A stretch of DNA of 64,000 bases from Ilyobacter polytropus DSM 2926. Its GTDB lineage: Bacteria; Fusobacteriota; Fusobacteriia; Fusobacteriales; Fusobacteriaceae. Positions 17,895 through 55,938 of the stretch are shown here, piece after piece. The stretch is taken from the NCBI RefSeq assembly GCF_000165505.1, contig NC_014632.1, positions 62,001 through 126,000 on the forward strand. Direction: 5' to 3'. The number at the start of each line of letters is the position of its first letter. The stretch's first letter is position 1. The translations under genes were made by a program, and so were the position numbers. The notes under the pieces were generated by a model. That model worked only from the letters and a program-made list of their open reading frames with translations, had not been told where the DNA came from and did not search any database.

Positions 17895-17905
17895 GAGGGA
17901 TCCAA

Positions 17906-18850: not shown

Positions 18851-18854
18851 GAAT

Positions 18855-18884: not shown

Positions 18885-18909
18885 ATAAAATCTTTATAAG
18901 GAGGAAGAG

Positions 18910-23822: not shown

Positions 23823-24515
23823 ATGAAAAATGTAGATTTTATGTTAAATAAACTATCAGGACAAGAAAAATTTTCAGTTCCTTATGAAAAGGTGTTGGTA
23901 ATAGGATATTCAGGAAGAAATATGGAAAAAACCATGGAGCACATTAAAGAGTTGGAGGAACAGTTAAATGTTCCAGCGCCAAAGAAGATTCCAACTATAT
24001 TTGAATGTTCTCTAGAAACATTGACACAAGAAAAAAATATAAAGTTTGTTGGAGATCAAACATCAGGTGAGATAGAATACATTATCATATATATGAACGG
24101 GAAAACATATATTGGTATTGGAAGCGATCATACAGACAGAAAATTAGAAAGTGTTAGTGTACCAAAATCGAAGCAAGTTTGTGCAAAGCCTATTGGAAAT
24201 GAATTATGGGATTATGATGATATAAAGGAGCATTGGGATCAAATAAAAATGGTGTCTTGTCAAATAATTGATGGTAAAGAAGTTAAATATCAAGATGGTA
24301 AACTTGCTGATATTTTAAAAGTTGAAAAAATATTAGAAGAACTAAAGGAGAGAGTGGGAAATATTGACAATAGCATTATTTATTCAGGTACAGTGCCTTT
24401 GCTGGACGGATTTAAGTATGGAGACACTTTTAAATGCATGATGATAGATGAGGTTTTGAAAAGAACTTTAAAATTGGAGTATGGCATTGATACAATTTCA
24501 GAGGAGGAGAGATAA
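23823..24515 (+). CDS. DUF2848 family protein
   Basis: 230-residue soluble protein of a family with no assigned reaction. Recognisable family segments are KVLVIGYSGRN near the N-terminus, PTIFECS, GIGSDHTDRKLE in the middle and YSGTVPLLDGFKYGD near the end; the conserved Asp-His and Glu residues look like a metal or catalytic site related to fumarylacetoacetase-like proteins (inference). It lies 15 bp after the nitrilase and 1 bp before the TRAP binding protein, so it probably acts on the imported substrate or on the amidase product. Confidence 0.75.
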   Translation: MKNVDFMLNKLSGQEKFSVPYEKVLVIGYSGRNMEKTMEHIKELEEQLNVPAPKKIPTIFECSLETLTQEKNIKFVGDQTSGEIEYIIIYMNGKTYIGIGSDHTDRKLESVSVPKSKQVCAKPIGNELWDYDDIKEHWDQIKMVSCQIIDGKEVKYQDGKLADILKVEKILEELKERVGNIDNSIIYSGTVPLLDGFKYGDTFKCMMIDEVLKRTLKLEYGIDTISEEER

Positions 24516-24516
24516 T

Positions 24517-25542: not shown

Positions 25543-25615
25543 GTTTTACGGTTGTATTTCAAAAAGTGAGGTGATGCTCTTAGTAGCTTTTTCACTAAAA
25601 AATGGGGGGATTTAA

Positions 25616-26113
25616 ATGAAAACAATAGACTCTTTTATTGGTGGATTTTTAAAATTTGTTATGGCGTTTAGTTCATTAATACTTTCTGTAGTTACTTTTA
25701 TACAGGTAATCACTAGATTTATATATAAAGATCCTATAGCTTGGGGACAGGATGTAATAAGGTTAAGTTTTATATATTTGGTATTTTGGGGAGGTGCCTA
25801 CTGCATCAAGGAGAAGGAACACCTAAATATCGATATTTTATTAACATCAGTGGGCATCAAAACTAGAAAAATTATGGAGATTGTTATAAATCTCATATTG
25901 GCGATATTCTTTATTTTTATAGTTTACTATGGCTTTATCTTTATGCAATCAGGTGCTTCTCAAAAGGCACCTTATTTACCAATTCCAATGTCGCTATATT
26001 ACTTAGCATTACCATCAAGTGTTTTATTGATGCTTTATTATCAAATACAAATTATTTTTCAACAGATAAAAAATTTTAACAAAATCAGCAACGAAGTAGA
26101 GGTACAAATATGA
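25616..26113 (+). CDS. TRAP transporter small membrane subunit (DctQ)
   Basis: 165 residues with four transmembrane segments, as expected for DctQ. The VITRFIYKDPIAWGQDVIRL motif after the first helix is typical. It overlaps the start of the DctM gene by 4 bp, so the two are translationally coupled and form the membrane complex served by the binding lipoprotein upstream. Confidence 0.88.
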   Translation: MKTIDSFIGGFLKFVMAFSSLILSVVTFIQVITRFIYKDPIAWGQDVIRLSFIYLVFWGGAYCIKEKEHLNIDILLTSVGIKTRKIMEIVINLILAIFFIFIVYYGFIFMQSGASQKAPYLPIPMSLYYLALPSSVLLMLYYQIQIIFQQIKNFNKISNEVEVQI

Positions 26114-27375
26114 TTATTTTAGCTTTATTTACGGTATTCTTATTAGGTTTTCCTATAGCGTTTTCTTTAGGGATGGTTTCATTAGGACAGATATTGATAA
26201 ATGACTTTCCAGTATTAGTAGTTATCCAAAGAATGTTTACAGGAGCTGACAGTATAGCACTTACTGCTATTCCACTCTTCATATTATCAGGTGGGTTGAT
26301 GTATAAGGGTGGTATGTCAAAAAGAATAGTTAATTTTGCAGATCTATTGCTAGGCCATTTTCCAAGTGGCCTTGCAATGGTAAGTATTTTAGCGTGTATG
26401 TTCTTTGCGGCTATAACGGGTTCTGCCATAGCTGCAACGGCTGCTATAGGTGGAATTATGATTCCGTTGATGGTTGAGAAGGGCTATGACAAAAAGTTTT
26501 GTACTCCTTTAGTAGCTTGCGGTGGTTCCATAGGACCAATAATTCCTCCAAGTATACCACTTCTTATTTTTGGTGTTATGGCCAATGTGAGTGTAGCAAA
26601 ATTGTTTTTAGGTGGATTTTTACCAGGGCTACTAATGGGAGCGGGGCTGATGGGATATAGCTACGTTGTAGGTAAAAATAGAGGATACATAGGTAGAGAA
26701 ACCAAGGCTCCCTCTAATGAAGTTTTTAAAGCAGCAAAAGATGCACTTCTAGCGTTGTTGATGCCAATTATCATAATTGGGGGTATCATGAGTGGTTTGT
26801 TCACGCCGACTGAATCTGGAACGATAGCTGTTTTTTATGCCCTTGGTGTGGGGATGTTTGTATATAGGGAGTTAACCTTGTCAGATTTATGGGAAGCATT
26901 AAGAGATTGTGCAAAGTCAACTGGACAGGTGCTAGTAGTTGTGGCTTTTGCCTCGTTATTTACTTGGGTGATTACGGTAAATAATATTCCACAAGAGGTA
27001 GGGGCATATTTAAGTGCTGCCATTGGTAATAAATATGTTCTTCTATTGGTTATTAATGTTATCTTACTTATTGCTGGAACATTTATAGATACAACTAGTG
27101 CTGTTGTAATATTTACACCATTATTTTTGCCTTTAGCTAAAAGCTTTGGTATAGACTTAATACACTTCGGTTTGATTATGGCAGTTAACCTAACAATTGG
27201 AATGTGCACTCCTCCCTTAGGTGTATGCTTATTCGTATCAGGATCTGTTGCAAAAGTATCCCTCAAAGAACAATTCAAAGATTTAATGCCTATGTTAGTT
27301 GTGCTTCTCACTGTTTTAATGATAGTGACATATATACCAGAAATTGTACTGATGTTGCCAAACTTCTTGGGATAG
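26110..27375 (+). CDS. TRAP transporter large membrane subunit (DctM)
   Basis: 421-residue sodium-coupled transport subunit with about twelve membrane segments. Family motifs GSAIAATAAIGGIMIPLM, CGGSIGPIIPPSIPLLIFG and GMCTPPLGVCLFVSG are present. Start overlaps dctQ by 4 bp. Completes the transporter of the nitrilase operon. Confidence 0.92.
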   Translation: MIILALFTVFLLGFPIAFSLGMVSLGQILINDFPVLVVIQRMFTGADSIALTAIPLFILSGGLMYKGGMSKRIVNFADLLLGHFPSGLAMVSILACMFFAAITGSAIAATAAIGGIMIPLMVEKGYDKKFCTPLVACGGSIGPIIPPSIPLLIFGVMANVSVAKLFLGGFLPGLLMGAGLMGYSYVVGKNRGYIGRETKAPSNEVFKAAKDALLALLMPIIIIGGIMSGLFTPTESGTIAVFYALGVGMFVYRELTLSDLWEALRDCAKSTGQVLVVVAFASLFTWVITVNNIPQEVGAYLSAAIGNKYVLLLVINVILLIAGTFIDTTSAVVIFTPLFLPLAKSFGIDLIHFGLIMAVNLTIGMCTPPLGVCLFVSGSVAKVSLKEQFKDLMPMLVVLLTVLMIVTYIPEIVLMLPNFLG

Positions 27376-35870: not shown

Positions 35871-36104
35871 ATAAATTCTTCTATTTTATAGAGAGATTTT
35901 TTTGATTACTCAATTTTTTAAGATACGCATATAGTCAAAAGAAAATAAGCCCCACCCAGACTAATATATTTAGTGAATGGTTTAGCTTTATTATATATAT
36001 TTGCTAAACGTTGTTAATAAGTGTTAAAGTTATTTAAATTGAATTGAAATTATTTTATAAATTTAAGATATAAGAGAATAAATTAATTATACAGTTCAAT
36101 CTTT

Positions 36105-36158
36105 ATAATATCTTATTAGAAAAAAGAGACTTCTCTTTCATGCCCTAAAAAGATATAT
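36105..36158 (+). ncRNA. Upstream copy of the candidate aptamer in the ectoine-operon leader
   Basis: P1 pairs ATATCTT (36108-36114) with AAGATAT (36150-36156). Inside are a hairpin AAAGAGA/TCTCTTT and the junction GCCCT (36142-36146), the same layout as the element 45 nt downstream. It has no terminator of its own, so the leader would present two aptamer-like domains in tandem. Confidence 0.55.
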
Positions 36159-36198
36159 GAATTATTATAAAATAATATAAAAATAGAATAATATTCAT

Positions 36199-36313
36199 CT
36201 AAGTAAAGGGCATCTTTGTAAGAAAAGATAAGGTCAGCCTTATTTTACCCTTCAAAGATATAAAGTCATATTACTTTCATTTGATTTTTAAATGGGAGTA
36301 GTCTGACTTTTTT
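36199..36313 (+). ncRNA. Candidate attenuator RNA, copy in the ectoine operon leader
   Basis: AAGTAA (36201-36206); P1 ATCTTTG (36212) with CAAAGAT (36253); inner hairpin of AAGATAAGG with CCTTATTTT; junction ACCCTT (36247-36252); TTACTT (36271-36276) inside a 19-bp terminator stem (AGTCATATTACTTTCATTT with AAATGGGAGTAGTCTGACT, one mismatch) followed by TTTTTT. AAGTAA:TTACTT pairing would enclose P1 and break the terminator. Confidence 0.8.
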
Positions 36314-36408
36314 ATTTTGAATTATTTTACAGAAAATCATTCGATAACCAATTATTATTCTATTTAGGAGACCATTTTATATAAAATGGTTATTTAATTC
36401 AAAATAAA

Positions 36409-36436
36409 TATTGTCGACAATAGACAATAGACAATT
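36409..36436. promoter_or_regulatory. Candidate GntR operator with three phased half-sites (ectoine operon)
   Basis: The palindrome TATTGTCGACAATA (36409-36422) is extended by two further right halves, so GACAATA recurs at 36416, 36423 and (as GACAATT) 36430, exactly 7 bp apart. Same geometry as 22918-22944 with a different sequence. The likely binder is the regulator encoded at 42837-43505. Confidence 0.65.
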
Positions 36437-36494
36437 TTTGTTAAACTTAAATAATAAAACTTGGTTAAGTTTTCAGTAGCAGGAGGGGTTGTGC

Positions 36495-37676
36495 GTGGAC
36501 ATAATAAGAGAGATAGAAGATTTAAGAGAAGAATTGATAAACTTAAGAAGAGATTTCCATAAACATCCTGAATTGGGATTCCAGGAATTTAGAACTTCAG
36601 AAATAATAACAAACTATCTTAAGGAGTTAGGCATTGAAGTAAAATCAGGAATTGCAAAAACAGGCGTAGTAGGATTGTTAAAAGGTAAAAGTCCAGGGCG
36701 TACTGTCTTACTTCGTGCAGATATGGACGCTTTAGCTATACAAGAAGAAGTAGATACCACTTATAAATCTGTCCATGATGGAAAGATGCACGCCTGTGGT
36801 CATGACGGTCATATAGCAATGCTTTTAATTGCAGCTAAAATCTTAGTGAAGTATAAAGATGAGATAAACGGAAATATAAAATTTCTTTTTCAACCAAATG
36901 AAGAAGAAGCAGGAGCAAGAGCCATGATAGACGAAGGTGTACTTGAAAATCCACATGTAGATGCTGCTTTTGCAATTCATCTATGGACTCCAATAGAATA
37001 TAAAAATATAGGAGTTACACCTGGACCTGTAATGGCTGCCCATGATAATTTCAAGGTTACCATCAAAGGGAAGGGGGGACATACTTCATCACCACATATT
37101 TCAATTGACCCAATGATTGCGGCAGCAAATGTTATTCAATCCGTTCAAAGCATTCAAACAAGAGAAATAGATGTACTTTCTCCTACATCTATAATATTTG
37201 GAAAAATTAATGGAGGAACAGCATCTAATATTATTCCTGAAACAGTTGAATTAGAAGGTACTATTAGATATTTATATGAAGGTAAGGACAATAGTGAAGA
37301 AAAACCAAGAATTAGATTTGAAAGGATTGTGAGAAATGTTTGTAATTTGTACAGAACAGAGTATGAATTACAGATAATGCCAAGCAGTTATGCAGTAATA
37401 AATAATGATAAATTGACTAATATTGCCATGGATGAATCCAGTATGATAGTAAATAGAAATGGTGGAAAAATCGTTTCGTATATTTGTATGGCAGGAGAAG
37501 ATTTTTCGGAATTCTCTAGTGAAGTACCAAGTACTTTGATTTTTGTAGGAGCTGGTAATAAAGCAAAGGAAGCTCATTATCCTCATCATCATCCAAGGTT
37601 TGATATAGACGAAGATGCATTGGCTGTAGGGGTAGAACTACATGTTAGAAATGTAATTGCGTTTTTAAAAAGATAA
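36495..37676 (+). CDS. M20-family amidohydrolase, probable N-acetyl-diaminobutyrate deacetylase (DoeB2 type)
   Basis: 393-residue zinc-dependent M20D peptidase/aminoacylase. Metal motifs are RADMDALAI, HACGHDGHIAML and the catalytic Glu pair in PNEEEAGARAM; the C-terminal HHHPRFDIDEDAL is typical. M20D enzymes deacylate N-acyl amino acids. Placed before the ectoine hydrolase gene, the likely substrate is N-acetyl-2,4-diaminobutyrate, giving diaminobutyrate and acetate. The GTG at 36495 has AGGAGG eight bases upstream; the in-frame TTG at 36489 is too close to it. The family is certain; the substrate is from context. Confidence 0.8.
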   Translation: MDIIREIEDLREELINLRRDFHKHPELGFQEFRTSEIITNYLKELGIEVKSGIAKTGVVGLLKGKSPGRTVLLRADMDALAIQEEVDTTYKSVHDGKMHACGHDGHIAMLLIAAKILVKYKDEINGNIKFLFQPNEEEAGARAMIDEGVLENPHVDAAFAIHLWTPIEYKNIGVTPGPVMAAHDNFKVTIKGKGGHTSSPHISIDPMIAAANVIQSVQSIQTREIDVLSPTSIIFGKINGGTASNIIPETVELEGTIRYLYEGKDNSEEKPRIRFERIVRNVCNLYRTEYELQIMPSSYAVINNDKLTNIAMDESSMIVNRNGGKIVSYICMAGEDFSEFSSEVPSTLIFVGAGNKAKEAHYPHHHPRFDIDEDALAVGVELHVRNVIAFLKR

Positions 37677-37711
37677 AAAAATTATTATAAAATATAAGGG
37701 GGGGTATTACA

Positions 37712-38887
37712 ATGATGCCATTTGAGAAAAAAGAATATTTGGAAAGAATGAAAAAAGTAAAAGAAAGTATGAATCATAAAGGAATAGAAGTCCTTTTAAT
37801 TACGGATCCAGCAAATATTTGTTATCTTTCTGGTCATAATGCTTGGTCATTTTATGTACACCAAATTCTATTAGTTACATTAGATGATGAAATGCCAATT
37901 TTTATCGGAAGATACATGGATGCTTTCTGTGGGGTGGTAAAAACTACTTGGTTAGATGAAAATCATGTTAGAGCTTACCCAGATTATTATGTTCAAAGTT
38001 TAATAAAGCATCCAATGGATTACGTTTGTGATGTAGTTAAAGAATTGAATCTTGATAAAAAATCTATTGGAGTTGAAATGGATAATTATTATTTTACAGC
38101 TTCAGCGTATAAACATCTAGTACAAGGACTACCTGATGCTCGTTTTGTGGATGGTGATTTAGTTGTAAATTGGGTAAGAGTAATAAAATCGGATAAGGAA
38201 ATTGAATTGCAAAGAAGAGCTGCTAAGATTGTTGAAAAAGCAATGCAAACGGCTATTGATTCATTAGAACCTGGAGCTAGAAAATGCGATGTAGCTGCAG
38301 ACATACTTCATGCTCAAGTTAGTGGTACTCAAGAATTTGGCGGAGATTATACAAGTATTGTACCCCTTATGCCTTGTGGAGAAACCGCCGGAGCTCCTCA
38401 TTTAACATGGGATGAAAGTAGATATACTGATAATACAGTAGTTGCAGTGGAATTGGCAGGCTGTCACCAAAGATATCATTCCCCAATGGCGAGAACTGTT
38501 TCTTTAGGAAAACCAAGTCCCAAAGTAGAAGAAATTGCTAAAATTACAATTGAAGGATTAAATGCAGCATTGGACGTTATTAAACCAGGCGTAACCTGCG
38601 AAGAGGTAGAATTAGCTTGGAGAAAGACTATAGGTAAGTATGGTATAGAAAAAGAATCTCGTATAGGATATTCTATGGGACTTAACTATCCACCTGATTG
38701 GGGTGAGCATACAATAAGTTTAAGACCAGGAGATAAAACTATTTTAAAACCTAATATGACGCTACACTGTATACCAGGTATGTACTTTGATGATTTTGGA
38801 GTATCAATTAGTGAAGCGCTAGTTGTTACAGAAAATGGATGTGAAACTTTAGCTAATTTTCCTCGTAAGTTATTTGTTAAAGAATAA
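37712..38887 (+). CDS. doeA: Ectoine hydrolase (M24 peptidase-fold)
   Basis: 391-residue creatinase/aminopeptidase P-fold hydrolase. Long segments agree with DoeA/EutD as I remember it: DPANICYLSGHNAWSFYVHQ, YVQSLIKHPMDYV, GVEMDNYYFTASAY, PHLTWDESRY and LNYPPDWGEHTISLRPGD. DoeA opens the ectoine ring to N-acetyl-2,4-diaminobutyrate. No metal-ligand set of true M24 aminopeptidases is complete, as expected for this subgroup. It sits after the M20 deacetylase and before a TRAP transporter, the transporter class used for ectoine in halophiles. The start is one of two adjacent ATG codons. Confidence 0.85.
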   Translation: MMPFEKKEYLERMKKVKESMNHKGIEVLLITDPANICYLSGHNAWSFYVHQILLVTLDDEMPIFIGRYMDAFCGVVKTTWLDENHVRAYPDYYVQSLIKHPMDYVCDVVKELNLDKKSIGVEMDNYYFTASAYKHLVQGLPDARFVDGDLVVNWVRVIKSDKEIELQRRAAKIVEKAMQTAIDSLEPGARKCDVAADILHAQVSGTQEFGGDYTSIVPLMPCGETAGAPHLTWDESRYTDNTVVAVELAGCHQRYHSPMARTVSLGKPSPKVEEIAKITIEGLNAALDVIKPGVTCEEVELAWRKTIGKYGIEKESRIGYSMGLNYPPDWGEHTISLRPGDKTILKPNMTLHCIPGMYFDDFGVSISEALVVTENGCETLANFPRKLFVKE

Positions 38888-38944
38888 ACAAGTAATGCTA
38901 GGAATAGTTAGTATAAAATTTAGCCATTAGAAAGGAGCTATAAT

Positions 38945-39481
38945 ATGAATTTGATTAAAAAGGTAGATGATTTTACCCGTAAAATTGAAGAAGTAATATT
39001 AAGTTATGGAATTATTTTTATGGCTATAACCTTAATTGGAAATGTTATTAGTAGAACTTTGTTTAATAAAAGTTGGACATGGGCTGAGGAAGTGGGACAA
39101 ATACTTGTAATATCAATTACCTTTGTAGGAACTAGTCATGCGGCAAGAGTGGGAAGACATATCAGAATGTCAGCTTTCTTTGACATGTTGTCTCAAAAAA
39201 ATCAGAAGATATTAATATTGATTATGTCTTTAGTCACTTCTATTACAATGTTTTACTTAAGTTATTTATCTTTATTGTACACAATGAAAATATACTCTAT
39301 AGGAAGAGTGACTCCTTCAATGAGACTTCCAATGTATAAAATAACTTCTGTAGTTGTATTTGGGTTTTTCTTGACAGGAATTCAATACTTAATAAATTTC
39401 ATATTAAATATAAAAGAAAAAGACGTTTATATAGGAACGGAGAAAAAAATAGGTGATGAAGAGCTTATAAGTGGTTATTAA
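38945..39481 (+). CDS. TRAP transporter small membrane subunit (DctQ), ectoine operon
   Basis: 178 residues with four transmembrane helices and the DctQ motif ISRTLFNKSWTWAEEVGQIL after the first helix, then VGTSHAARVGRHIRMSAFFDML. Ribosome site AAAGGAGC. Followed by the large subunit 53 bp later. Probably the membrane anchor of an ectoine/hydroxyectoine importer (TeaABC/UehABC-like by role). Confidence 0.88.
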   Translation: MNLIKKVDDFTRKIEEVILSYGIIFMAITLIGNVISRTLFNKSWTWAEEVGQILVISITFVGTSHAARVGRHIRMSAFFDMLSQKNQKILILIMSLVTSITMFYLSYLSLLYTMKIYSIGRVTPSMRLPMYKITSVVVFGFFLTGIQYLINFILNIKEKDVYIGTEKKIGDEELISGY

Positions 39482-39534
39482 GTATACAATTTAAGCAAAT
39501 TTATTCGCTAATCCTAATAAAGGAGGAGAGTAAG

Positions 39535-40815
39535 ATGATAGTAACACTGATTGGAATTATGATAGTTTTATTATTATTGGGTTTCCCAATGTTAATGTCT
39601 ATGATTGTGTCACCCTTAGCAGTTACACTAATATATTTTCCAAATATTAATGCGACACTGTTAATACAACAACTAGTAGCCGGAGTTCAACCTTTCGTTC
39701 TTTTAGCAGTACCGATGTTTATATTTGCAGCAGATATTATGTGTGCTGGTAAAACAGCAAATAGATTACTAGATTTTGTCGAAAAATTTGTTGGCCATAT
39801 ACATGGGGGCATGGCAATTACCACTGCAACTGCTTGCACATTGTTTGGGGCAATTTCAGGTTCAACTCAAGCAACAGTAGTAGCAATTGGAAAACCTATG
39901 CGCCAGAAATTATTGAAAATGGGTTACGATGATAGTGATGCTATGGCCTTAATAATTAATGCCAGTGATATTGCATTACTGATTCCACCAAGTATAGGAA
40001 TGATCATGTACGCTGTGGTTACAGGAGCTTCAGTAGGGGAATTGTTTATAGCAGGGATTGGACCTGGACTAGTTCTTTTAGTTTGTTTTTCGATCTATAG
40101 TTATATTTTTGCCAGAAAGAATAATATTCCAAGAACCCCCAAAGCAAGTATTAAAGAAAAGATGAGAGCAACTAAAAAAGCATTATTACCTTTGGGATTT
40201 CCAGTAATAATTATTGGGGGAATTTATTCAGGTATTTTCAGCCCAACTGAAGCTGCAGCAGCCTCTGTGTTATACGCAGTAATTTTGGAAGTTGTGGTAT
40301 ACAAAGCTATAAAGATAAAAGAATTATATAATATTGCTTTATCCACTGGTTTAGTTACTGCAGCTGTTTTTATTCTAGTAGGTGGAGGACAAGCATTCTC
40401 ATGGTTAATTTCTTATGCGAAGATTCCTCAAATGATGACTTCTGTGCTCTTGGGAGGAAGTCCATCACCATTAAGAATTTTATTAACAGTAACTATATTT
40501 TATTTCGTTGGTTGTATGTTTGTAGATCCGATTGTAGTAATTATCATCTTAACACCGATCTTTTATCCGCTAGCTATGGCTGCAGGTATTGATCCTATAC
40601 ATTTAGGTATACTTATCACATTGCAGTCAGCAATAGGTTCAGCAACACCACCATTTGGGTGCGATATTTTTACAGCCTGTGCGGTGTTTGAGAAACCATA
40701 CCTGGAAGTAATAAGAAAAACACCGCCATATATATTTATATTAGTGGTAATTTCTATTATAATGATATTTTTTCCAGGAATTGCTCTGTTTTTCAGAGAT
40801 TTAGTTTTTTCCTAG
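39535..40815 (+). CDS. TRAP transporter large membrane subunit (DctM), ectoine operon
   Basis: 426-residue transport subunit with about twelve membrane segments. Family motifs FGAISGSTQATVVAIGKPM, SDIALLIPPSIGMIMYAVV and GSATPPFGCDIFTACAVF are present. Preceded by GGAGGAGAG. Sodium-coupled uptake partner of the DctQ and DctP proteins beside it. Confidence 0.9.
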   Translation: MIVTLIGIMIVLLLLGFPMLMSMIVSPLAVTLIYFPNINATLLIQQLVAGVQPFVLLAVPMFIFAADIMCAGKTANRLLDFVEKFVGHIHGGMAITTATACTLFGAISGSTQATVVAIGKPMRQKLLKMGYDDSDAMALIINASDIALLIPPSIGMIMYAVVTGASVGELFIAGIGPGLVLLVCFSIYSYIFARKNNIPRTPKASIKEKMRATKKALLPLGFPVIIIGGIYSGIFSPTEAAAASVLYAVILEVVVYKAIKIKELYNIALSTGLVTAAVFILVGGGQAFSWLISYAKIPQMMTSVLLGGSPSPLRILLTVTIFYFVGCMFVDPIVVIIILTPIFYPLAMAAGIDPIHLGILITLQSAIGSATPPFGCDIFTACAVFEKPYLEVIRKTPPYIFILVVISIIMIFFPGIALFFRDLVFS

Positions 40816-40893
40816 TTAAATCATTAGCAATATAAAATAAATAAATCCGTTTGGCAGGGGTGCTATACGAGATAATACAAGGGGGAGTAAATA

Positions 40894-41946
40894 ATGATAA
40901 AAAAAATATCTTTGCTTATGTTAATTGTGATATTAACTCTTTCACTTTTTGGGTGCAGTGATGGTGGTTCTGCAAATAATGAAGCTTCTTCAGGTAAGCC
41001 AGTTACTTGGAGAATAACACATGAAGAAGTAGTTGGTAGCGTACAAGATGTTTATGCGAATAAATTTAAAGAGCTTATTGAAGAAAAATCAGCCGGAAAA
41101 ATTAAAGTAGAGGTCTATCCAGTGGGTCAATTAGGAGACGGTGTTACCCAAGTTGAGCTCCTTCAAGATGGAGGTGTAGACTTTGCTATCAATAATCCTG
41201 GTGCAGTGGCAACAATAATTCCAGAAAATCAAGTGTTTTCACTACAGTTTCTTTTGTCCGATGATATGGATGTAAATCAAAAGGTAATGACAGAGGGTGC
41301 AGCTAAAGATGAACTTAATAATATTTATTTAAAGAAAGGCATTAAAGTGTTAGATTGGTTTACAGAAGGATTTCAAATGTGGACAGGAAACAAATCATTA
41401 ACAAGTATTGATGATTTTAAAGGGTTTAAGATGAGAACAATGGCTTCTCCTATGATATCGGCAGGATATGAAGCATACGGTGCTAATCCCACACCAATAC
41501 CTTATATGGAGGTTTACAGTAGTTTACAATTAAATATGATTGATGGACAAGTTAATCCTATCTTTGCTATAGAGGAAATGAAATTTTATGAAGTGCAAAA
41601 ATATTTAATGATGTCTAAACAAAACACTTTTGTTGGTACCTTTTGCGTGAATCCTGATTTTTGGGATAAATTAGGGGATTCTGATAAAGGAATGGTTGAG
41701 AGTATAGTACCAGAACTAAACAAATATATTTTTGAAGTTCAGGAAAATTTAAATACAGAAAGACTGGAAAAAATTAAAGAGGTAAGTGATATACAAATTG
41801 TTGAACTTACAGATGGAGAAAGGGATTCTTTTAAGGAAGCAAGCATACCAGTTAGAGATGTTTATGTAAATGAGGTAGGAGAAAAAGGTAAAAAAATATT
41901 AGATTTATTGATTAAGGATGTAGAGAAATTTGAAAATGAGAAATAA
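40894..41946 (+). CDS. TRAP transporter substrate-binding lipoprotein (DctP), ectoine operon
   Basis: 350-residue binding protein with the lipoprotein signal MIKKISLLMLIVILTLSLFGC. The DctP core is visible: YPVGQLGDGVTQVELLQDGG, then FKGFKMRTMASPMISAGYEA with the carboxylate-binding Arg, then MIDGQVNPIFAIEEMKFYEV. Encoded after its membrane subunits, the reverse of the nitrilase operon order. Proposed ligand: ectoine or hydroxyectoine, from context. Confidence 0.88.
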   Translation: MIKKISLLMLIVILTLSLFGCSDGGSANNEASSGKPVTWRITHEEVVGSVQDVYANKFKELIEEKSAGKIKVEVYPVGQLGDGVTQVELLQDGGVDFAINNPGAVATIIPENQVFSLQFLLSDDMDVNQKVMTEGAAKDELNNIYLKKGIKVLDWFTEGFQMWTGNKSLTSIDDFKGFKMRTMASPMISAGYEAYGANPTPIPYMEVYSSLQLNMIDGQVNPIFAIEEMKFYEVQKYLMMSKQNTFVGTFCVNPDFWDKLGDSDKGMVESIVPELNKYIFEVQENLNTERLEKIKEVSDIQIVELTDGERDSFKEASIPVRDVYVNEVGEKGKKILDLLIKDVEKFENEK

Positions 41947-42040
41947 ACATTTAATTTAGAATCGGTAATACTGACAGATAAATATAAAATTAAGATATTA
42001 TAATAACTTATTTTACTGTAATTTTACGGAGGAAGATTAT

Positions 42041-42769
42041 ATGAAAGATTTTTTATACGGAGAGAAATTAAAGATAGGACTTATTTATCCCTGTGGTGGG
42101 TGGGTTATGGAGCCAGAGTTTTATGATATGTCTCCAGTGGGAGTATCTACATATACAACCCGAGTTTTATTAGATAATGTTAATGAAAATGAGTTAACTA
42201 AAGTTGGTGACAGGGCTATCCGTGCTACTAAATTGCTATGCAAAGCTCCCGTAGATATAGTTGCATTAGGATGTACCAGTGGTAGCTTTATAGGTGGGGC
42301 CAAGTATGATGAGGAATTGATAAAAAAAATGGAGAAAGCTTCAGAGGGAGTACCTTGTCTAACTACATCTTCAGCCGTTGTTGCGGCATTAAAAAATCTA
42401 AATATAAAAAAAGTAGCATTAGCGACTCCGTACACTAATGATGTAAATATGCGATGTAAAATATTTTTAGAAGAATATGGATTTGAGATTACAAATATTT
42501 GTGGGTTAGGATTAACAAATGATTCTGAGATTGATAGACAAAAATTGGAAGTTATTTACAAATTAGCTAAAGATGCAGATACTACCGATGCAGAGGCAGT
42601 GGCTATATTATGTACTGGTGTTAGAAGCATACCTATTTTACAGGATTTAGAAACAGATTTAGGTAAACCAGTTATATCTGCTGTTCAGGCTACATTTTGG
42701 CATTGTCTTTGCATGGCGGGAGTTAAGGAAAAGATATCTGGTTATGGAAGTTTATTAGAAAGTATTTAA
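42041..42769 (+). CDS. eutA: Asp/Glu racemase-fold protein, EutA/maleate isomerase-like
   Basis: 242-residue protein of the aspartate/glutamate/hydantoin racemase superfamily. Two catalytic Cys are in expected places: VALGCTSGSFIGG near residue 75 and AILCTGVRSIPIL near 190. The opening KIGLIYPCGGWVMEPEFYDM resembles maleate isomerase and arylmalonate decarboxylase relatives. EutA of this fold is encoded in ectoine-utilisation operons of rhizobia, where its reaction may be epimerisation of hydroxyectoine; that matches this context. The name is given on family plus neighbourhood, not on a search. Confidence 0.65.
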   Translation: MKDFLYGEKLKIGLIYPCGGWVMEPEFYDMSPVGVSTYTTRVLLDNVNENELTKVGDRAIRATKLLCKAPVDIVALGCTSGSFIGGAKYDEELIKKMEKASEGVPCLTTSSAVVAALKNLNIKKVALATPYTNDVNMRCKIFLEEYGFEITNICGLGLTNDSEIDRQKLEVIYKLAKDADTTDAEAVAILCTGVRSIPILQDLETDLGKPVISAVQATFWHCLCMAGVKEKISGYGSLLESI

Positions 42770-42836
42770 AGGATAATTAAAAAAATAATCTATTTTGAAA
42801 TAGAAATTTTACATTATTATAATTAGGAGCGGAAAC

Positions 42837-43505
42837 ATGATAATTAAAAGTAAATTTTTTCATGAAAATCTCAGTGATAAAGTTGTAGAGTTTATTAAAC
42901 AAAAAATTTTTACAGGTGAGTATAAGAAAGGACACCATATTTTAGAACAGGAAATAGCTAATGAATTAAATATAAGTAGAGCACCAGTAAGGGAAGGAAT
43001 AAAATTATTGCAAAATCAAGAATTAATTAAATTTATACCAAGAAAAGGTAATTATGTAAATGAATTTACGATGGAAGATATAAAAGAAATTTATGACATA
43101 AGGTTATTAATAGAGACTAGCGTTTTTGAAATATTAATTAATGAAAAAAAATTAACAGAAGAGGATTTTCAAAACCTAATAAAAATTATTGATGAAATGG
43201 TTGAATTAGCTAAAAAAGAAGGTGAATTATCAACAAAAATCATGAATTTAAATAAAAAAGACATGGAATTTCATAGATATATTTGGAATAAATCTGGAAG
43301 CAACAGGAGAATAAGGATTTTATCAACTTTATATACTCAGTTACAACTAGCTATGATTATAGATACAAAATTAGCAGGAAATCTAGAAAATACTGCAAAA
43401 GAGCATTATGCAATAATAGAATATTTAAGACAAGGGGATTTAGATAGCTGTATAAAAGCCTTTGAAGATCATATATTAATATACAGAAATAAAAATAATC
43501 AATAG
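42837..43505 (+). CDS. GntR-family regulator, FCD subfamily, of the ectoine operon
   Basis: 222-residue regulator with a winged HTH (KKGHHILEQEIANELNISRAPVREGIKLL) and FCD domain (KKDMEFHRYIW, AKEHYAIIEYL and FEDHILIY carry the metal site). It ends the ectoine cluster. It is not the MocR-type EnuR regulator of proteobacterial ectoine operons, so control here has a different origin. The candidate operator is the phased palindrome at 36409-36436. Confidence 0.88.
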   Translation: MIIKSKFFHENLSDKVVEFIKQKIFTGEYKKGHHILEQEIANELNISRAPVREGIKLLQNQELIKFIPRKGNYVNEFTMEDIKEIYDIRLLIETSVFEILINEKKLTEEDFQNLIKIIDEMVELAKKEGELSTKIMNLNKKDMEFHRYIWNKSGSNRRIRILSTLYTQLQLAMIIDTKLAGNLENTAKEHYAIIEYLRQGDLDSCIKAFEDHILIYRNKNNQ

Positions 43506-43557
43506 GTAGCATAATTTATACATATAAATAATTTTAAATTAAAAGGAGTGTTTAAAT

Positions 43558-44733
43558 ATGAAAATTAATACAGATTTACTTCATGCACAACAAAAACATG
43601 ACCCGGTAACAGGTTCTCATGTGAGTCCATTATATCAAACTTCTACATTTGTACTTCCAAATTTTGACGAAGCTGTAAGATTAAATCAGAATATTGATCA
43701 AGGATTTGTATATAGTAGATTTGGAAATCCAACAGTTGATGAATTTGAAAGAAAGGTGGCTCATTTAGAACAAGCAGAAGCCGCCGTAGCATCTGCTTCA
43801 GGTTTAGGAGCCATAACACTAGCCGTAATGTCATTAGTAAAGACCGGAGATCATGTTATTTTTGGTGATGTTATTTATGGATGTACATTTGCCTTATTTA
43901 CAAAAATATTACCATCTCTTGGTGTCGCATATACTATTGTAGATACAACAAACCCTGAGGCTATAGAAGCAGCAATTAAGCCTAATACCGTACTGGTATA
44001 TGTAGAAACACCAGCAAATCCAACTCTTAAAATAAGTGATATAGAAGCTGTTTCAAAAGTAACGAAAAAACATGAAAAAGTAAAGCTTGTTGTGGATAGT
44101 ACATTTGCATCACCATATCTACAAAATCCAATTGTTTTAGGTGCTGATATGGTTGTACACAGTGCAACCAAATATCTTTGTGGACATGGGACGGTAACTG
44201 CAGGAGTTCTTGCAGGAAGTAAAGAATTAATTGATAGAGCTAAAATGCCGTATCTTCAGTGTTTTGGATCTGTTTTGGATCCATTTGCAGCATGGACAAT
44301 TATGCAGGGGATGAAAACGTTGGGTGTTAGAATGGAAAAACATTGCTCTAATGCAATGAAGGTTGCGGAATTCCTTGATAATCATCCAATGGTAGATAAG
44401 GTATATTATCCAGGTTTACCGTCCCATGAAAGTCATGAGACTGCCAAAAAACAAATGAAAGATTTTGGAGCAATGATGAGTGTTGATATAAAAGGTGGAA
44501 TTGATTCATGTAGAACTGTAATGAATTCAGTAAAAGTATTTAGTCTTGCAACAAGTCTTGGAAATGTAGATTCGTTGATTCAACATTCTCCAACTATGAG
44601 TCACTTTGACATGACTCTAGAAGAAAGATGTAAAGTTAATATCTTTGATGGTCAAGTACGAATTTCAGTAGGAATTGAAGATGTTGAAGATTTAATAGAA
44701 GATTTAGATCAAGCACTTAAATCTATTAAATAA
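43558..44733 (+). CDS. megL: Methionine gamma-lyase (PLP-dependent)
   Basis: 391-residue Cys/Met metabolism PLP enzyme. The PLP Lys is in HSATKYLCGHG, and the Cys in DVIYGCTFALF near residue 109 is the residue that marks methionine gamma-lyases among cystathionine lyases. Product from methionine: 2-oxobutyrate, ammonia and methanethiol. Two genes downstream region is a 2-oxoacid:ferredoxin oxidoreductase that could take the 2-oxobutyrate to propionyl-CoA. Good AAGGAG ribosome site; 52 bp after the GntR gene, so possibly read through from it. Confidence 0.88.
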   Translation: MKINTDLLHAQQKHDPVTGSHVSPLYQTSTFVLPNFDEAVRLNQNIDQGFVYSRFGNPTVDEFERKVAHLEQAEAAVASASGLGAITLAVMSLVKTGDHVIFGDVIYGCTFALFTKILPSLGVAYTIVDTTNPEAIEAAIKPNTVLVYVETPANPTLKISDIEAVSKVTKKHEKVKLVVDSTFASPYLQNPIVLGADMVVHSATKYLCGHGTVTAGVLAGSKELIDRAKMPYLQCFGSVLDPFAAWTIMQGMKTLGVRMEKHCSNAMKVAEFLDNHPMVDKVYYPGLPSHESHETAKKQMKDFGAMMSVDIKGGIDSCRTVMNSVKVFSLATSLGNVDSLIQHSPTMSHFDMTLEERCKVNIFDGQVRISVGIEDVEDLIEDLDQALKSIK

Positions 44734-44921: not shown

Positions 44922-45506
44922 ATGTCTAATTTGGTAGAAATAAGATGGCATGGGAGAGGGGGCCAAGGCGCCAAGACAGCATCGCTGCTTTTGGCAGATG
45001 CAGCCTTTACAATTGGGAAATTTGTACAGGGATTTCCAGAATACGGTCCTGAGAGGATGGGGGCACCGATAACTGCATATAACAGGATAAGTGGCGAAAA
45101 AATAAGAGTTCACTCAAATATTTATGAGCCTGATTATGTAGTTGTAGTAGATGACACTCTTTTAAGCGCAGTTGACGTTACAAAAGGGCTTAAAAAAGAA
45201 GGGGCAATTATAATAAATACGTCAATACCTCAGAAAGAGATTTTAAGTAAACTAAAAAAATATGATGGAAATGTATTTTTGTGTGATGCAAGAAAAATCT
45301 CAGAGGAATCTCTCGGAAAGAATTTCCCTAACACTCCTATGCTTGGAGCTGTTGTAAAGGTAAGTGGTATTATGAGTGAAGAGGAGTTTTTGGGATCTAT
45401 GGAGGAATCTTTTAAGCATAAGTTTGCCTCAAAACCTGAAGTTATAAAAGGAAATATGAAAGCGTTGAAAGTTTCCATGGGAGAGGTGAAGATCTGTGAA
45501 AAATAA
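44922..45506 (+). CDS. porG: Pyruvate/2-oxoacid:ferredoxin oxidoreductase, gamma subunit
   Basis: 194-residue gamma subunit beginning VEIRWHGRGGQGAKTASLLL, with FVQGFPEYGPERMGAPITAYNR. First gene of a gamma-delta-alpha-beta operon typical of archaeal-type pyruvate or 2-oxoisovalerate oxidoreductases. Overlaps the delta gene by 11 bp. Confidence 0.9.
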   Translation: MSNLVEIRWHGRGGQGAKTASLLLADAAFTIGKFVQGFPEYGPERMGAPITAYNRISGEKIRVHSNIYEPDYVVVVDDTLLSAVDVTKGLKKEGAIIINTSIPQKEILSKLKKYDGNVFLCDARKISEESLGKNFPNTPMLGAVVKVSGIMSEEEFLGSMEESFKHKFASKPEVIKGNMKALKVSMGEVKICEK

Positions 45507-45798
45507 AAAAGGTATGGTAATTGACGAAAATATTAAATGGCAGGACATAACTCCAGGGGGAATAGTCTATGGTGGTGGAACTTCTGAAGCTGTAAATACA
45601 GGGGATTGGAGAACGAAAAAACCAGTTTTTATAGAGGGTAAATGCAAACAGTGCCTGCTTTGTACACCTGTATGCCCAGACATGTCTATCCCAATAAAGG
45701 ATGGCAAAAGAGCTGACTTTAATTATTATTTTTGTAAGGGTTGCGGAATATGTTACGAGGTATGTCCTTTTGATGCAATAAAAATGGAAAATGAATAG
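45496..45798 (+). CDS. porD: Pyruvate/2-oxoacid:ferredoxin oxidoreductase, delta (ferredoxin) subunit
   Basis: 100-residue ferredoxin subunit with two complete [4Fe-4S] motifs, CKQCLLCTPVCP and CKGCGICYEVCP, after a roughly 45-residue N-terminal arm usual for PorD. GTG start inside the gamma gene, after a GGGAGAGG site, so the two are translationally coupled. Confidence 0.9.
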   Translation: MKNKKGMVIDENIKWQDITPGGIVYGGGTSEAVNTGDWRTKKPVFIEGKCKQCLLCTPVCPDMSIPIKDGKRADFNYYFCKGCGICYEVCPFDAIKMENE

Positions 45799-45812
45799 GG
45801 AGGTAAAATCAG

Positions 45813-46991
45813 ATGGCAATAAAAGAAAGAATGTCAGGAAACGAATCAATAGCTATAGCAATGAGGCAGATAAATCCTGATGTATTACCTGCCTTTCCAA
45901 TAACTCCGTCTACAGAAATTCCACAGTATTTTTCAAAGTATGTGGCAGATGGATTGGTGCAAACAGAATTTATACCGGTAGAATCAGAACACAGTGCTAT
46001 GTCAGCAGCGATAGGAGCTCAGGCAGCAGGAGCAAGAACTACATCAGCAACTTCATCAGCCGGTCTTGCCCTTATGTGGGAGATGCTCCATGTGGCTGCT
46101 TCCTGTAAATTACCAATAACACTTGCATGCGTAAACAGAGCTCTTACCGGGCCAATTAATATAAATGCAGATCACAGTGACTCTATGGGAGCTAGAGACA
46201 CAGGGTGGATTCAAATATATAGCGAAACAAATCAAGAAGCTTATGATAACTATATTCAAGCAGTAAGAATTGCAGAGCACAAAGATGTTATGTTGCCTGC
46301 AATGGTGTGCCAGGACGGATTTATAACAAGTCATGCTGTTGAAAACATAGAACTTCTAGAAGATAAAGAAGTAAGGGATTTTGTAGGAGAATACGCTCCA
46401 GAAGATAGTCTCTTAAATCCAGGGTATCCTATTTCTCATGGTCCTTATGATACGGCAACTTTTTATATGGAACATAAAAGACTTCAGGCAGAGTCTATGA
46501 AAAAAGCTAAGAAAGTTATTCTTTCAGTGGCTGAAGAATTTAAAAAAGTTTCAGGAAGAGAGTACGGACTTTTTGAAGAATACAGAATGGAAGATGCAGA
46601 ATATGCAATGGTTATAATCAACTCATCTGCTGGAACTGCAAAGGTAGCAGTGGATGAGCTTAGAAAAGAGGGTAAAAAAGTAGGACTTATCAAGATAAGG
46701 GTATTCAGACCATTCCCGATGGAGGAACTGGCAGAGGCTCTGAAGCATCTTAAGGCTATTGCCGTTATGGATAAAAGTGAAGGGTTTTCTTCAGCGGGGG
46801 GACCTATTTTTGCTGAAGTAAGATCGGCAATGTATGATCTATCTGAAAAGCCAAGTGTTGTAAACTACATCTATGGTCTAGGTGGAAGAGATTTCACTGT
46901 TGATTCGGCGAAACAGGTGTATGATGAAATCGAAGACATAAAAGGAACATCTATAGATGACATATACAGATACCTTGGTGTAAGAGGATAG
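45813..46991 (+). CDS. porA: Pyruvate/2-oxoacid:ferredoxin oxidoreductase, alpha subunit
   Basis: 392-residue alpha subunit. RMSGNESIAIAMRQINPDVLPAFPITPSTEI and the TSATSSAGLALMWEMLHVAAS segment are diagnostic. The short C-terminal domain (VGLIKIRVFRPFPMEEL) is as expected. With the other subunits it oxidises pyruvate or a related oxoacid to acyl-CoA with ferredoxin reduction; linkage to methionine gamma-lyase suggests 2-oxobutyrate as a further substrate. Confidence 0.9.
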   Translation: MAIKERMSGNESIAIAMRQINPDVLPAFPITPSTEIPQYFSKYVADGLVQTEFIPVESEHSAMSAAIGAQAAGARTTSATSSAGLALMWEMLHVAASCKLPITLACVNRALTGPININADHSDSMGARDTGWIQIYSETNQEAYDNYIQAVRIAEHKDVMLPAMVCQDGFITSHAVENIELLEDKEVRDFVGEYAPEDSLLNPGYPISHGPYDTATFYMEHKRLQAESMKKAKKVILSVAEEFKKVSGREYGLFEEYRMEDAEYAMVIINSSAGTAKVAVDELRKEGKKVGLIKIRVFRPFPMEELAEALKHLKAIAVMDKSEGFSSAGGPIFAEVRSAMYDLSEKPSVVNYIYGLGGRDFTVDSAKQVYDEIEDIKGTSIDDIYRYLGVRG

Positions 46992-47001
46992 GAGGAGAGA
47001 A

Positions 47002-47940
47002 ATGGCATATAATTTAAAAGAACAGATGAATAAACCTGAAAGACTTTCAGGGGGGCACAGAATGTGTGCCGGGTGCGGAGCGCCTATAGCAGTAAGAACT
47101 ATGCTTAGAGCGTTAAAACCAGAAGATAAGGCGACTATTGTTAGTGCAACAAGTTGTTTAGAAGTTTCAACGTTTCTTTATCCGTATACAGCATGGAAGG
47201 ATTCCTTTATTCATACAGCCTTTGAAAATGCAGGAGCAACAATGAGTGGAGTGGAAGGAGCCTATAATGCCCTTAGAAGGAAGGGGAAATTAGATGAAAC
47301 CTATAAATTTATTGCGTTTGGTGGAGATGGTGGAACTTATGATATAGGATTCCAGTCACTTTCTGGAGCAATGGAAAGAAATCATGACATGGTGTATGTG
47401 TGTTATGACAACGGTGCCTATATGAATACAGGGATACAGAGGTCGTCTGCTACACCTAAGTATGCAGATACCACAACAACTCCAGTAGGAACGGAAAGTT
47501 CCGGTAAAATTCAGCCAAGAAAAGATATGGCTGCAATAATGGCTGCTCACAATATTCCTTATGCTGCTCAGACTACTTTTATGGGGAATATGAAAGATAT
47601 GCATGAAAAGGCAGAAAAAGCAATCTATACAAAGGGAGCGGCCTATCTGAATGTAATGGCACCATGTCCTAGAGGATGGAGGTATGATGAGTCAAAATTA
47701 ATGGAAATCTGCAAAGCAGCCGTAGATACATGCTATTGGCCTTGTTTTGAGGTTATCAACGGAGAATGGAAACTTTCATACAGACCTAAGGAAAAGCTTC
47801 CCATTGAAGAATTTTTAAAATCTCAAGGAAGGTTTAAACATCTTTTTAAACCTGAAAATAAGCACCTTATAGAAGAGATGCAAAAAGAGGTGGACAGAAG
47901 ATGGAATGAACTTTTAAAAAAATGTGGAGAAGAAGTATAG
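47002..47940 (+). CDS. porB: Pyruvate/2-oxoacid:ferredoxin oxidoreductase, beta subunit
   Basis: 312-residue thiamine-diphosphate subunit. HRMCAGCGAPIAVRTML supplies cluster Cys residues; AFGGDGGTYDIGFQSLSGAMERN is the thiamine-diphosphate/Mg motif; CPRGWRYDESK is typical of PorB. Last gene of the operon; a terminator of the dispersed-repeat type follows at 48091. Confidence 0.92.
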   Translation: MAYNLKEQMNKPERLSGGHRMCAGCGAPIAVRTMLRALKPEDKATIVSATSCLEVSTFLYPYTAWKDSFIHTAFENAGATMSGVEGAYNALRRKGKLDETYKFIAFGGDGGTYDIGFQSLSGAMERNHDMVYVCYDNGAYMNTGIQRSSATPKYADTTTTPVGTESSGKIQPRKDMAAIMAAHNIPYAAQTTFMGNMKDMHEKAEKAIYTKGAAYLNVMAPCPRGWRYDESKLMEICKAAVDTCYWPCFEVINGEWKLSYRPKEKLPIEEFLKSQGRFKHLFKPENKHLIEEMQKEVDRRWNELLKKCGEEV

Positions 47941-53023: not shown

Positions 53024-53115
53024 GAGTTTGGTATGCATTTATAAAATATTAAATCAATATCTTTCAACTAATCAAGGTTATCTTTTTAATAAAAATAAAT
53101 TTAAATAATCTCAAT

Positions 53116-53232
53116 CAAGTAAAAGGCATCTTTTTAGCAAAAATAAATTCTAGATTTATTTTACCCTATAAAAGATATAAAGTCGTGTTACTTTCATTTA
53201 TCTTAAGAATGGAAGTAGTGCGGCTTTTTTTT
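53116..53232 (+). ncRNA. Candidate attenuator RNA, copy in the nicotinate operon leader
   Basis: AAGTAA (53117-53122); P1 ATCTTTT (53128) with AAAAGAT (53170); perfect inner hairpin AAAATAAAT/ATTTATTTT; junction ACCCTA (53163-53168); TTACTT (53188-53193) inside an 18-bp terminator stem (AGTCGTGTTACTTTCATT with AATGGAAGTAGTGCGGCT) followed by eight T. The stop signal lies 42 bp before the first nicotinate gene, so ligand-dependent antitermination could control the whole operon. Confidence 0.8.
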
Positions 53233-53273: not shown

Positions 53274-54155
53274 GTGATAAGAGAGATAGAATATTATGCT
53301 CCGACACACAAAAAAGAACTATTTGAGATAATTCATAATGACAATAGGGATATATGTTTGATAGCAGGGGGGACAGATTTGATTATAAATATCAATAAAA
53401 AACATTTATCCCCAGATGCAATTGTTAATTTAAAGTCAATGGAAGAATTAAATTACATAGAAGAAGAAGACGGGATTATTAAAATCGGAGCAACGGCTAC
53501 CCACAACCAGATTGCAAATTCGTTGTTAATTAAAGAAAAAGCCTTGGCTTTGGCGCAGGCTTGTAAAAGCGTGGGGTCAACCCAAATAAGAAATCTCGGT
53601 ACAATAGGAGGAAATATTGTCAATGCTTCTCCAGCTGCTGACTCAGTTGCGGCATTGCTTGCTTTAGATGCAAGTGTTCTATTAGAAAGTTATGGAGACA
53701 AAAGAAAAGTTAAGATATCGGATTTGCATACACATACTGGCGGTATTGATCTTAATAAAGGTGAAGTCTTAACAGAAATTTCTTTTAAATCATACAGTAA
53801 AAATATTTTTTCGTACTTCGTAAAATTTGGTCTAAGGGAAGCTCTAGCCATAGTAGAACTTAGTGTAACTGCAGTAATGGAAATTGATGAAAATAATTTT
53901 TGTAAGGACGCAAAAATATCCATAGGTGCAATAGAGAGGCATCCTGTAAGTGCAAAATGTGTAGAAGAGGAATTTGTCGGAAAGGAATTAAACTTAGAAA
54001 CCATCGAAGACTGTATAGAAAAAATGTCCGAGTTTACAGCAAAAACTCTTTTTAAGACACCATTTAAAGACTTAATACCATATAAGAAACAATGTATAAA
54101 AGGAGTTTCAAGAGAAGTGTTTGAGGCAATTTACTATAAAGCAGTTCGAAAATAA
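53274..54155 (+). CDS. ndhF: Nicotinate dehydrogenase, FAD subunit
   Basis: 293-residue FAD-binding subunit of a molybdenum hydroxylase. The FAD motifs CLIAGGTDLIININ near residue 30 and LGTIGGNIVNASPAAD near 110 are intact, with the usual C-terminal CO-dehydrogenase flavoprotein domain. GTG start behind AGGAGGGGG. First gene of an operon whose split Mo subunits and downstream reductase/enamidase match Eubacterium barkeri nicotinate fermentation. Passes electrons from the 2Fe-2S subunit to NADP. Confidence 0.8.
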   Translation: MIREIEYYAPTHKKELFEIIHNDNRDICLIAGGTDLIININKKHLSPDAIVNLKSMEELNYIEEEDGIIKIGATATHNQIANSLLIKEKALALAQACKSVGSTQIRNLGTIGGNIVNASPAADSVAALLALDASVLLESYGDKRKVKISDLHTHTGGIDLNKGEVLTEISFKSYSKNIFSYFVKFGLREALAIVELSVTAVMEIDENNFCKDAKISIGAIERHPVSAKCVEEEFVGKELNLETIEDCIEKMSEFTAKTLFKTPFKDLIPYKKQCIKGVSREVFEAIYYKAVRK

Positions 54156-54178
54156 TTCTTTTTAATAAGGAGACTGAT

Positions 54179-54652
54179 ATGAAAAAATTTAAGATGTCAT
54201 TTAGTTTAAATCATAAAGATGTTTATGTAGAGGTTGACCCTAGCAAGAGACTTCTTGATATGTTGAGAGAAGATTTTGGACTAACCGGTGTAAAAGAAGG
54301 TTGCGGAGAAGGAGAGTGTGGGGCGTGTACCGTCATAATGAATGGTGATGCTATTACCTCTTGTACAGTTTTGGCACCACAAGTTGAAGACAGTAGGATC
54401 ATTACAATTGAAGGAATATCTAAAGAGGGAGAATTGGATGAAATACAGGAAGCATTTATAAAATACGGAGCTGTACAGTGCGGATTTTGTACCCCGGGAA
54501 TGGTTCTATCCATAAAAGCACTTTTAATGAAGAATTCAAATCCAAGTGATGATGACATTAAAGAGGCTATAGAAGGGAATCTATGCAGATGCACGGGTTA
54601 TAAAAAAATTATAGATGCTACAAAAGAAGTCGTAGCAAATTCAAATAGATAA
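54179..54652 (+). CDS. ndhS: Nicotinate dehydrogenase, [2Fe-2S] subunit
   Basis: 157-residue iron-sulfur subunit. The plant-type cluster motif CGEGECGACTVIMNGDAITSC is in the N-terminal half and the second cluster motif CGFCTPGM with CRCTGYKKI in the C-terminal half. Length equals that expected for NdhS. Between the FAD and large Mo subunits. Confidence 0.85.
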   Translation: MKKFKMSFSLNHKDVYVEVDPSKRLLDMLREDFGLTGVKEGCGEGECGACTVIMNGDAITSCTVLAPQVEDSRIITIEGISKEGELDEIQEAFIKYGAVQCGFCTPGMVLSIKALLMKNSNPSDDDIKEAIEGNLCRCTGYKKIIDATKEVVANSNR

Positions 54653-54664
54653 AGGGAGGTGAGG

Positions 54665-55924: not shown

Positions 55925-55938
55925 AAGGAGGGACCCCT

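Follow-up and report, generated by a model that had tools for sequence, protein, structure and literature searches.

The osmolyte ectoine is widespread in marine and saline habitats, and its breakdown is known experimentally from respiring Proteobacteria, which oxidise it to aspartate. A gene cluster that may serve an oxygen-free route lies in the genome of Ilyobacter polytropus DSM 2926, which comprises 3,132,314 bp in 3 contigs and of which we analysed a 64,000-nucleotide window (positions 62001-126000 of contig 1; all unlabelled coordinates below refer to this window). I. polytropus CuHbu1 (DSM 2926), with three replicons and the same 3,132,314 bp, is a Gram-negative, strictly anaerobic member of the Fusobacteriota from marine mud that requires 1% NaCl for good growth (PMC3035301). 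From the sequence alone, an earlier reading (the original prediction) had placed an ectoine catabolic operon of an anaerobe at 36495-43505, and had supposed that diaminobutyrate leaves by an oxygen-independent route, possibly through an adjacent pyridoxal 5'-phosphate (PLP) enzyme. We found that the unit continues to 44733 and includes the gene for that enzyme, which resembles methionine gamma-lyase (MGL). On balance we favour, somewhat above even chances, the reading that the module is a transferable ectoine-fermentation unit in which the MGL-like enzyme acts as a diaminobutyrate gamma-lyase. This would extend the trait to Fusobacteriota, in a cultured type strain, and name candidate enzymes and products (acetate, propionate and ammonia) for an oxygen-free route.

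Extent of the co-inherited unit

Eight co-directional genes with plausible ribosome-binding sites, separated by gaps of 35-94 bp, occupy 36495-44733 on the forward strand. The first seven are those originally named, in the same order: an M20 deacylase (36495-37676), a DoeA-like hydrolase (37712-38887), a complete TRAP transporter (38945-41946), an EutA-like protein (42041-42769) and a GntR regulator (42837-43505). The eighth (43558-44733) encodes the MGL-like protein, a fold-type-I PLP enzyme (PF01053, 480 bits; MGL models under cut-off) predicted to be a gamma-lyase of 2,4-diaminobutyrate or of homoserine. The M20 gene starts with GTG at 36495, where a congener has ATG, and a TTG at 36489 is also possible. 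As had been claimed for the shorter block, 36495-44733 holds no aminotransferase/dehydrogenase pair, that is, no DoeC or DoeD, and no EnuR.

The first-proposed end point at 43505 did not hold. In one congener (G043), the stretch corresponding to 35872-44733 recurs with 94% identity at a different genomic site, and the homology extends precisely to the stop codon of the MGL-like reading frame and no further. A second congener (G042) has neither DoeA nor an intact MGL-like gene, but a 117-bp stub of the 3' end of the latter (codons 353-391; L115:13694-13810) remains directly upstream of a PorGDAB operon that is 97% identical to that of the window. A common ancestor most likely had the module at this site, and G042 then lost it by deletion. 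Among 98 Fusobacteriota, DoeA occurs in I. polytropus and G043 only, and so does an orthologue of the MGL-like protein; no other MGL in the family is more than 53% identical to it. The co-inherited unit reaches past 43505 to 44733, and on these comparisons the MGL-like gene is inherited together with DoeA. The same gene set recurs around DoeA in many loci of Bacillota and Thermodesulfobacteriota, so that the grouping is far beyond chance.

We also considered the adjoining PorGDAB operon (44922-47940, forward strand), a pyruvate/2-oxoacid:ferredoxin oxidoreductase in gamma-delta-alpha-beta order (TIGR02175 above cut-off; PorA/PorB best models), as part of the module, and rejected it: the operon persists in G042, where the cluster is missing, and does not adjoin the cluster in G043.

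Candidate ectoine hydrolase, deacylase and importer

The original assignment of the M24 protein to DoeA/EutD, rather than to creatinase or prolidase, was upheld. Its best PDB match is Halomonas elongata DoeA (6twk, E 1e-117), followed by a prolidase (5e-31); it is 45% identical to H. elongata DoeA over the full length, with active-site motifs in common. In an alignment including the genome's own prolidase-like M24 protein, the metal-ligand set of M24 peptidases was lost in the window protein, as in H. elongata DoeA. On these matches and the alignment we rejected a prolidase or creatinase identity. A 95-row tree likewise joined it with characterised DoeA and not with M24 peptidases. Its own clade there (9 rows, SH-aLRT 99) otherwise holds sequences from Anaerotignum, Alkalibacterium, Peptococcaceae, Sporomusaceae and two metagenome-assembled genomes (MAGs) of Clostridia; this nesting of a Fusobacteriota DoeA among Bacillota sequences suggests acquisition by transfer between phyla. 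Composition gives no sign of a recent transfer, since GC is near-equal in the cluster (32.6%) and the rest of the window (33.6%). The TIGR02993 score (479 bits) lies below the equivalog cut-off of 613, and Bacillota relatives are also just 41-50% identical to H. elongata DoeA; the protein is thus a divergent member of the DoeA family, not a proven equivalog.

The M20 protein (TIGR01891, 366 bits) shares its fold with DoeB/DoeB2 and, judged by its sequence, is a probable N-alpha-acetyl-2,4-diaminobutyrate deacetylase standing in for DoeB/EutE. It scores 274 bits with the DoeB2 model NF038260 (cut-off 550) and 392 with the CpsA model (cut-off 500); most of the other DoeA loci of anaerobes carry an M20 gene with 52-62% identity to it.

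The transporter consists of a DctQ/TeaB-like small permease (38945-39481; PF04290, 83 bits), a DctM/TeaC-like large permease (39535-40815; PF06808, 399 bits; TIGR00786 above cut-off) and the solute-binding lipoprotein DctP (40894-41946). The best PDB matches of DctP are 4pfi, TeaA (2vpn/3gyy) and UehA (3fxb); among relatives whose ligand is known, the ectoine binders TeaA and UehA come closest, making it a probable ectoine binder. At positions that we take to form the TeaA pocket, DctP keeps E9, R144, N184, F187 and F209, and has W167 replaced by Y and F66 by A.

These departures at W167 and F66, together with the model scores below cut-offs, leave some room for a substrate of the M24/M20/TRAP cluster other than ectoine, either a different cyclic amidine or an N-acyl amino acid; Schwibbert et al. 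also noted that Firmicutes have DoeA homologues of low identity but no doeB with them (PMC3187862). We consider this improbable in view of the full-length identity and common motifs with H. elongata DoeA, the position of TeaA and UehA as the best known-ligand relatives of the binding protein, and the EutB and EutC genes that adjoin related DoeA copies in other loci.

For the EutA-like protein, the racemase (arylmalonate decarboxylase) fold and the likeness to EutA stood (PF17645, 134 bits), with cysteine at both catalytic positions in an alignment to arylmalonate decarboxylase; the EutA role did not. It scores 143 of the 318 bits required by TIGR02990, and none of the eight loci that carry its subfamily also carries EutB or EutC, so the protein need not perform the job of EutA. 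No convincing EutB or EutC was found in the I. polytropus genome. The regulator is a GntR protein with an FCD domain (PF00392 and PF07729), not of the MocR type to which EnuR belongs; relatives with 43-49% identity occur in Halanaerobiales DoeA loci. The GC content of its gene is only 24%, against 33-35% in most module neighbours.

Predicted fate of diaminobutyrate

In the pathway that we propose, ectoine, and possibly hydroxyectoine too, would be imported by the TRAP transporter, its ring opened by DoeA to N-acetyl-diaminobutyrate, and acetate removed by the M20 enzyme to yield L-2,4-diaminobutyrate. Gamma-elimination by the MGL-like enzyme would then release the gamma-amino group and yield 2-oxobutyrate with two ammonia, and a 2-oxoacid:ferredoxin oxidoreductase with a propionate/acetate kinase, encoded next door or elsewhere, would convert 2-oxobutyrate through propionyl-CoA to propionate, CO2, reduced ferredoxin and ATP. 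The net reaction would be ectoine + 4 H2O -> acetate + propionate + CO2 + 2 NH3 + 2[H]. The families of the parts, the co-inheritance of the MGL-like gene and its altered methionine pocket are read from sequence; all substrates and products we infer, as we do that the enzyme acts directly on diaminobutyrate and not on homoserine.

Annotation would label the eighth gene a methionine gamma-lyase, which it probably is not. Canonical MGLs require a Tyr-Gly-Cys (YGC) motif and Lys240-Asp241 (the KD pair; P. putida numbering), which serve as a methioninase criterion (PMC11568061). The window enzyme, about 46-53% identical to canonical MGLs, keeps the PLP lysine. It and seven MGLs from other ectoine-cluster genomes all keep YGC, and the KD pair is absent from all eight. 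The signature K239Q, D240x (Cys, Thr or Val in place of Asp) and a one-residue deletion nearby (T242) is fixed in 8/8; further fixed differences separate these eight from ten canonical MGLs, and in the tree seven ectoine-type MGLs formed their own clade (100/100 support). With an altered methionine pocket and a clade of their own, the ectoine-type enzymes should not be filed as methioninases. Loss of the positively charged lysine would fit a substrate with a cationic side chain. A search of a plasmid collection yielded only MGLs of less than 60% identity.

Gene neighbourhoods point in the same direction. Of 77 DoeA loci, 51 contained a Cys/Met-type PLP gene, five a class III aminotransferase gene and nine a GDH-like gene, and the PLP gene overlapped with neither of the latter (0/5 and 0/9); since the loci are phylogenetically related, P values for gene co-occurrence overstate. 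This mutual avoidance, the loss of the KD pair and the co-inheritance with DoeA make the gamma-lyase role likely, and with it the exit through the adjacent PLP enzyme that had been suggested originally. In Alkalibacterium (L012), the gene order is MGL, M20, DoeA, transporter, acetate/propionate kinase, RidA (imine deaminase family) and a PF08543 kinase, possibly a pyridoxal kinase, a set that would suit a route in which a PLP enzyme forms a 2-imino acid by elimination and ATP is then gained by substrate-level phosphorylation.

The MGL-like gene might instead recycle only methionine or other sulphur amino acids, with diaminobutyrate passing through housekeeping enzymes (a transaminase and a dehydrogenase) to aspartate, which is then fermented. 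Class III transaminases are present in the genome, and the species ferments malate and fumarate (PMC3035301). However, the gene moves and is lost together with DoeA and is absent from DoeA-free relatives, the enzyme lacks the KD pair of methioninases, and we regard this fate as unlikely.

Another alternative keeps the module as it is and places a transaminase elsewhere: diaminobutyrate would become aspartate semialdehyde, a homoserine dehydrogenase would reduce it to homoserine, and the MGL-like enzyme would eliminate water to give 2-oxobutyrate. The Cys/Met PLP enzyme of Bacilli DoeA loci, a different one, does have a homoserine dehydrogenase (in 42 of the 51 loci with a PLP gene) and an aldehyde dehydrogenase as partners, and I. 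polytropus itself has a GABA-transaminase-like gene. Against this, the window-type MGL clusters of anaerobes are without homoserine dehydrogenase or aminotransferase, no dedicated diaminobutyrate (EctB-type) aminotransferase was found among the class III aminotransferases of the I. polytropus genome, and hydroxide is no better as a leaving group. A homoserine route is, in our view, rather unlikely.

Several observations weigh against direct gamma-elimination from diaminobutyrate and the module built around it. Amines leave poorly from the gamma position, and we know of no described diaminobutyrate gamma-lyase. The MGL-like enzyme retains YGC, as methioninases do; the GABA-transaminase-like gene (L100) could yield aspartate semialdehyde; and the NCBIfam scores of the DoeA, M20, EutA-like and MGL-like proteins are all under equivalog cut-offs. 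PorGDAB, the candidate for the next step, is not specific to the module. Finally, MGLs outside Fusobacteriota were sampled via DoeA loci, so ectoine-free members of the clade may have been missed.

Other possible exits at DoeA loci

Two PLP subfamilies occur at DoeA loci. The window type is found in Clostridia MAGs, Alkalibacterium, Tissierellia and Sporolactobacillus; the other (PRK08249) is the type of Bacilli, where genes for homoserine dehydrogenase and an aldehyde dehydrogenase accompany it. In five genomes with GDH-type clusters (L008, L013, L053, L069 and L078) the window-type MGL is absent genome-wide; one further genome (L048) has a cluster without it and a copy elsewhere.

The clusters of Anaerotignum neopropionicum (L008:4279-8757) and of a Peptococcaceae MAG (L013:3362-7950) open with a beta-alanyl-CoA:ammonia-lyase-type gene, a VorB-type 2-oxoacid:ferredoxin oxidoreductase and a GDH-like dehydrogenase. 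The L008 lyase matches 4mtu (E 1e-83), that of L013 matches related aminoacyl-CoA ammonia-lyase models, and genes for an acryloyl-CoA-reductase-like ACAD and Etf follow downstream in L013 (16370-19471). Beta-alanyl-CoA:ammonia-lyase belongs to the beta-alanine fermentation of Clostridium/Anaerotignum propionicum. From these gene sets we predict a second anaerobic exit, from diaminobutyrate through 4-amino-2-oxobutyrate, beta-alanyl-CoA and acryloyl-CoA to propionyl-CoA, with the same overall balance as predicted for the MGL-like route. It would likewise end at a C3 acyl-CoA; its lyase, encoded beside DoeA in L008, is absent from the window. The broader proposal, that the MGL-like protein is an undescribed L-2,4-diaminobutyrate gamma-ammonia-lyase and that anaerobes evolved at least two exits, both fermenting ectoine to acetate and propionate, we put forward tentatively, at a little under even odds.

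In DoeA clusters of Halanaerobiales and Desulfoferrobacter (L069:3239-6440, L053:596-3864, L072, L073, L075, L077 and L078), a PanB-like gene (ketopantoate hydroxymethyltransferase), an unassigned gene of 316-333 amino acids and a GDH-like gene follow one another; here 4-amino-2-oxobutyrate might be split by a retro-Mannich reaction into pyruvate and methylene-tetrahydrofolate. Many Bacilli loci (L016, L019-L068; for example L020:11211-17229) have the order DoeA, EutC, CGS-like PLP enzyme (PRK08249), M20, homoserine dehydrogenase and aldehyde dehydrogenase, where the PLP enzyme may convert diaminobutyrate to homoserine, with aspartate semialdehyde and aspartate to follow.

Relation to known systems

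Like the DoeABCD/EutABCDE and UehABC systems of H. elongata and Ruegeria pomeroyi, the window cluster would begin with ectoine hydrolase and deacetylation to diaminobutyrate and has a TeaA/UehA-type TRAP importer. In contrast to them, it has an M20 enzyme for DoeB/EutE and an MGL-like PLP enzyme, and lacks DoeC/DoeD leading to aspartate, EnuR/AsnC and EutB/EutC. From canonical methionine gamma-lyase (TIGR01328), with which it has the fold, PLP lysine and YGC in common, the MGL-like protein differs by the replaced Lys-Asp pair, the one-residue deletion and its DoeA-tied clade.

The original prediction noted that ectoine degradation had mainly been studied in aerobic Proteobacteria. Putative clusters in anaerobes had already been reported: PMC13188858 (April 2026) lists them in Bacilli, Clostridia, Actinomycetes, Thermodesulfobacteriota and Halobacteria, thus covering Gram-positives and anaerobes, so that finding the trait in an anaerobe is in itself no novelty. 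As in the window, these clusters combine DoeA with an amidohydrolase, and those of Bacillota are without EnuR; homoserine dehydrogenase and aldehyde dehydrogenase are also noted there. The Bacillus type described there differs from the window in having PucR, EutB/C, a gene labelled atf and those two dehydrogenases. The text that we read describes no Fusobacteriota and no fermentative exit. In the open-access literature searched we found no Fusobacteriota ectoine cluster, no MGL-like gene as diaminobutyrate lyase, no beta-alanyl-CoA route, and nothing on a diaminobutyrate lyase or on ectoine together with 2-oxobutyrate, propionate or homoserine. The Fusobacteriota case and the predicted fermentative exits appear to be new; the cluster itself is real and partly anticipated, and what it adds is a predicted exit step.

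Other features of the genome and window

No match to ectoine synthase was found in the genome, but the control query matched nowhere either, so absence is not proven. Promoter-like sites in the window occurred at chance level and none stood out, and Rfam gave zero matches across it. The region upstream of the M20 gene that is kept with the module in G043 (35872-36494, forward strand; homology starts at 35872) holds a genus-wide interspersed intergenic repeat (about 36174-36313 in this module leader) without Rfam match; a second window copy lies at 53092-53230, and copies of 73-92% identity occur at several loci of both congeners. About 10 kb upstream of the module, near sugar-acid genes (16734-20184), lies a second TRAP transporter (DctP, DctM; 24481-27375) of unassigned substrate. 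Downstream, a xanthine-dehydrogenase-like molybdoenzyme (53274-56919) has its large subunit divided over two open reading frames (MoCoBD_1 and MoCoBD_2 domains); a ribosome-binding site lies between the two frames, which reads as a natural split and not an obvious frameshift.

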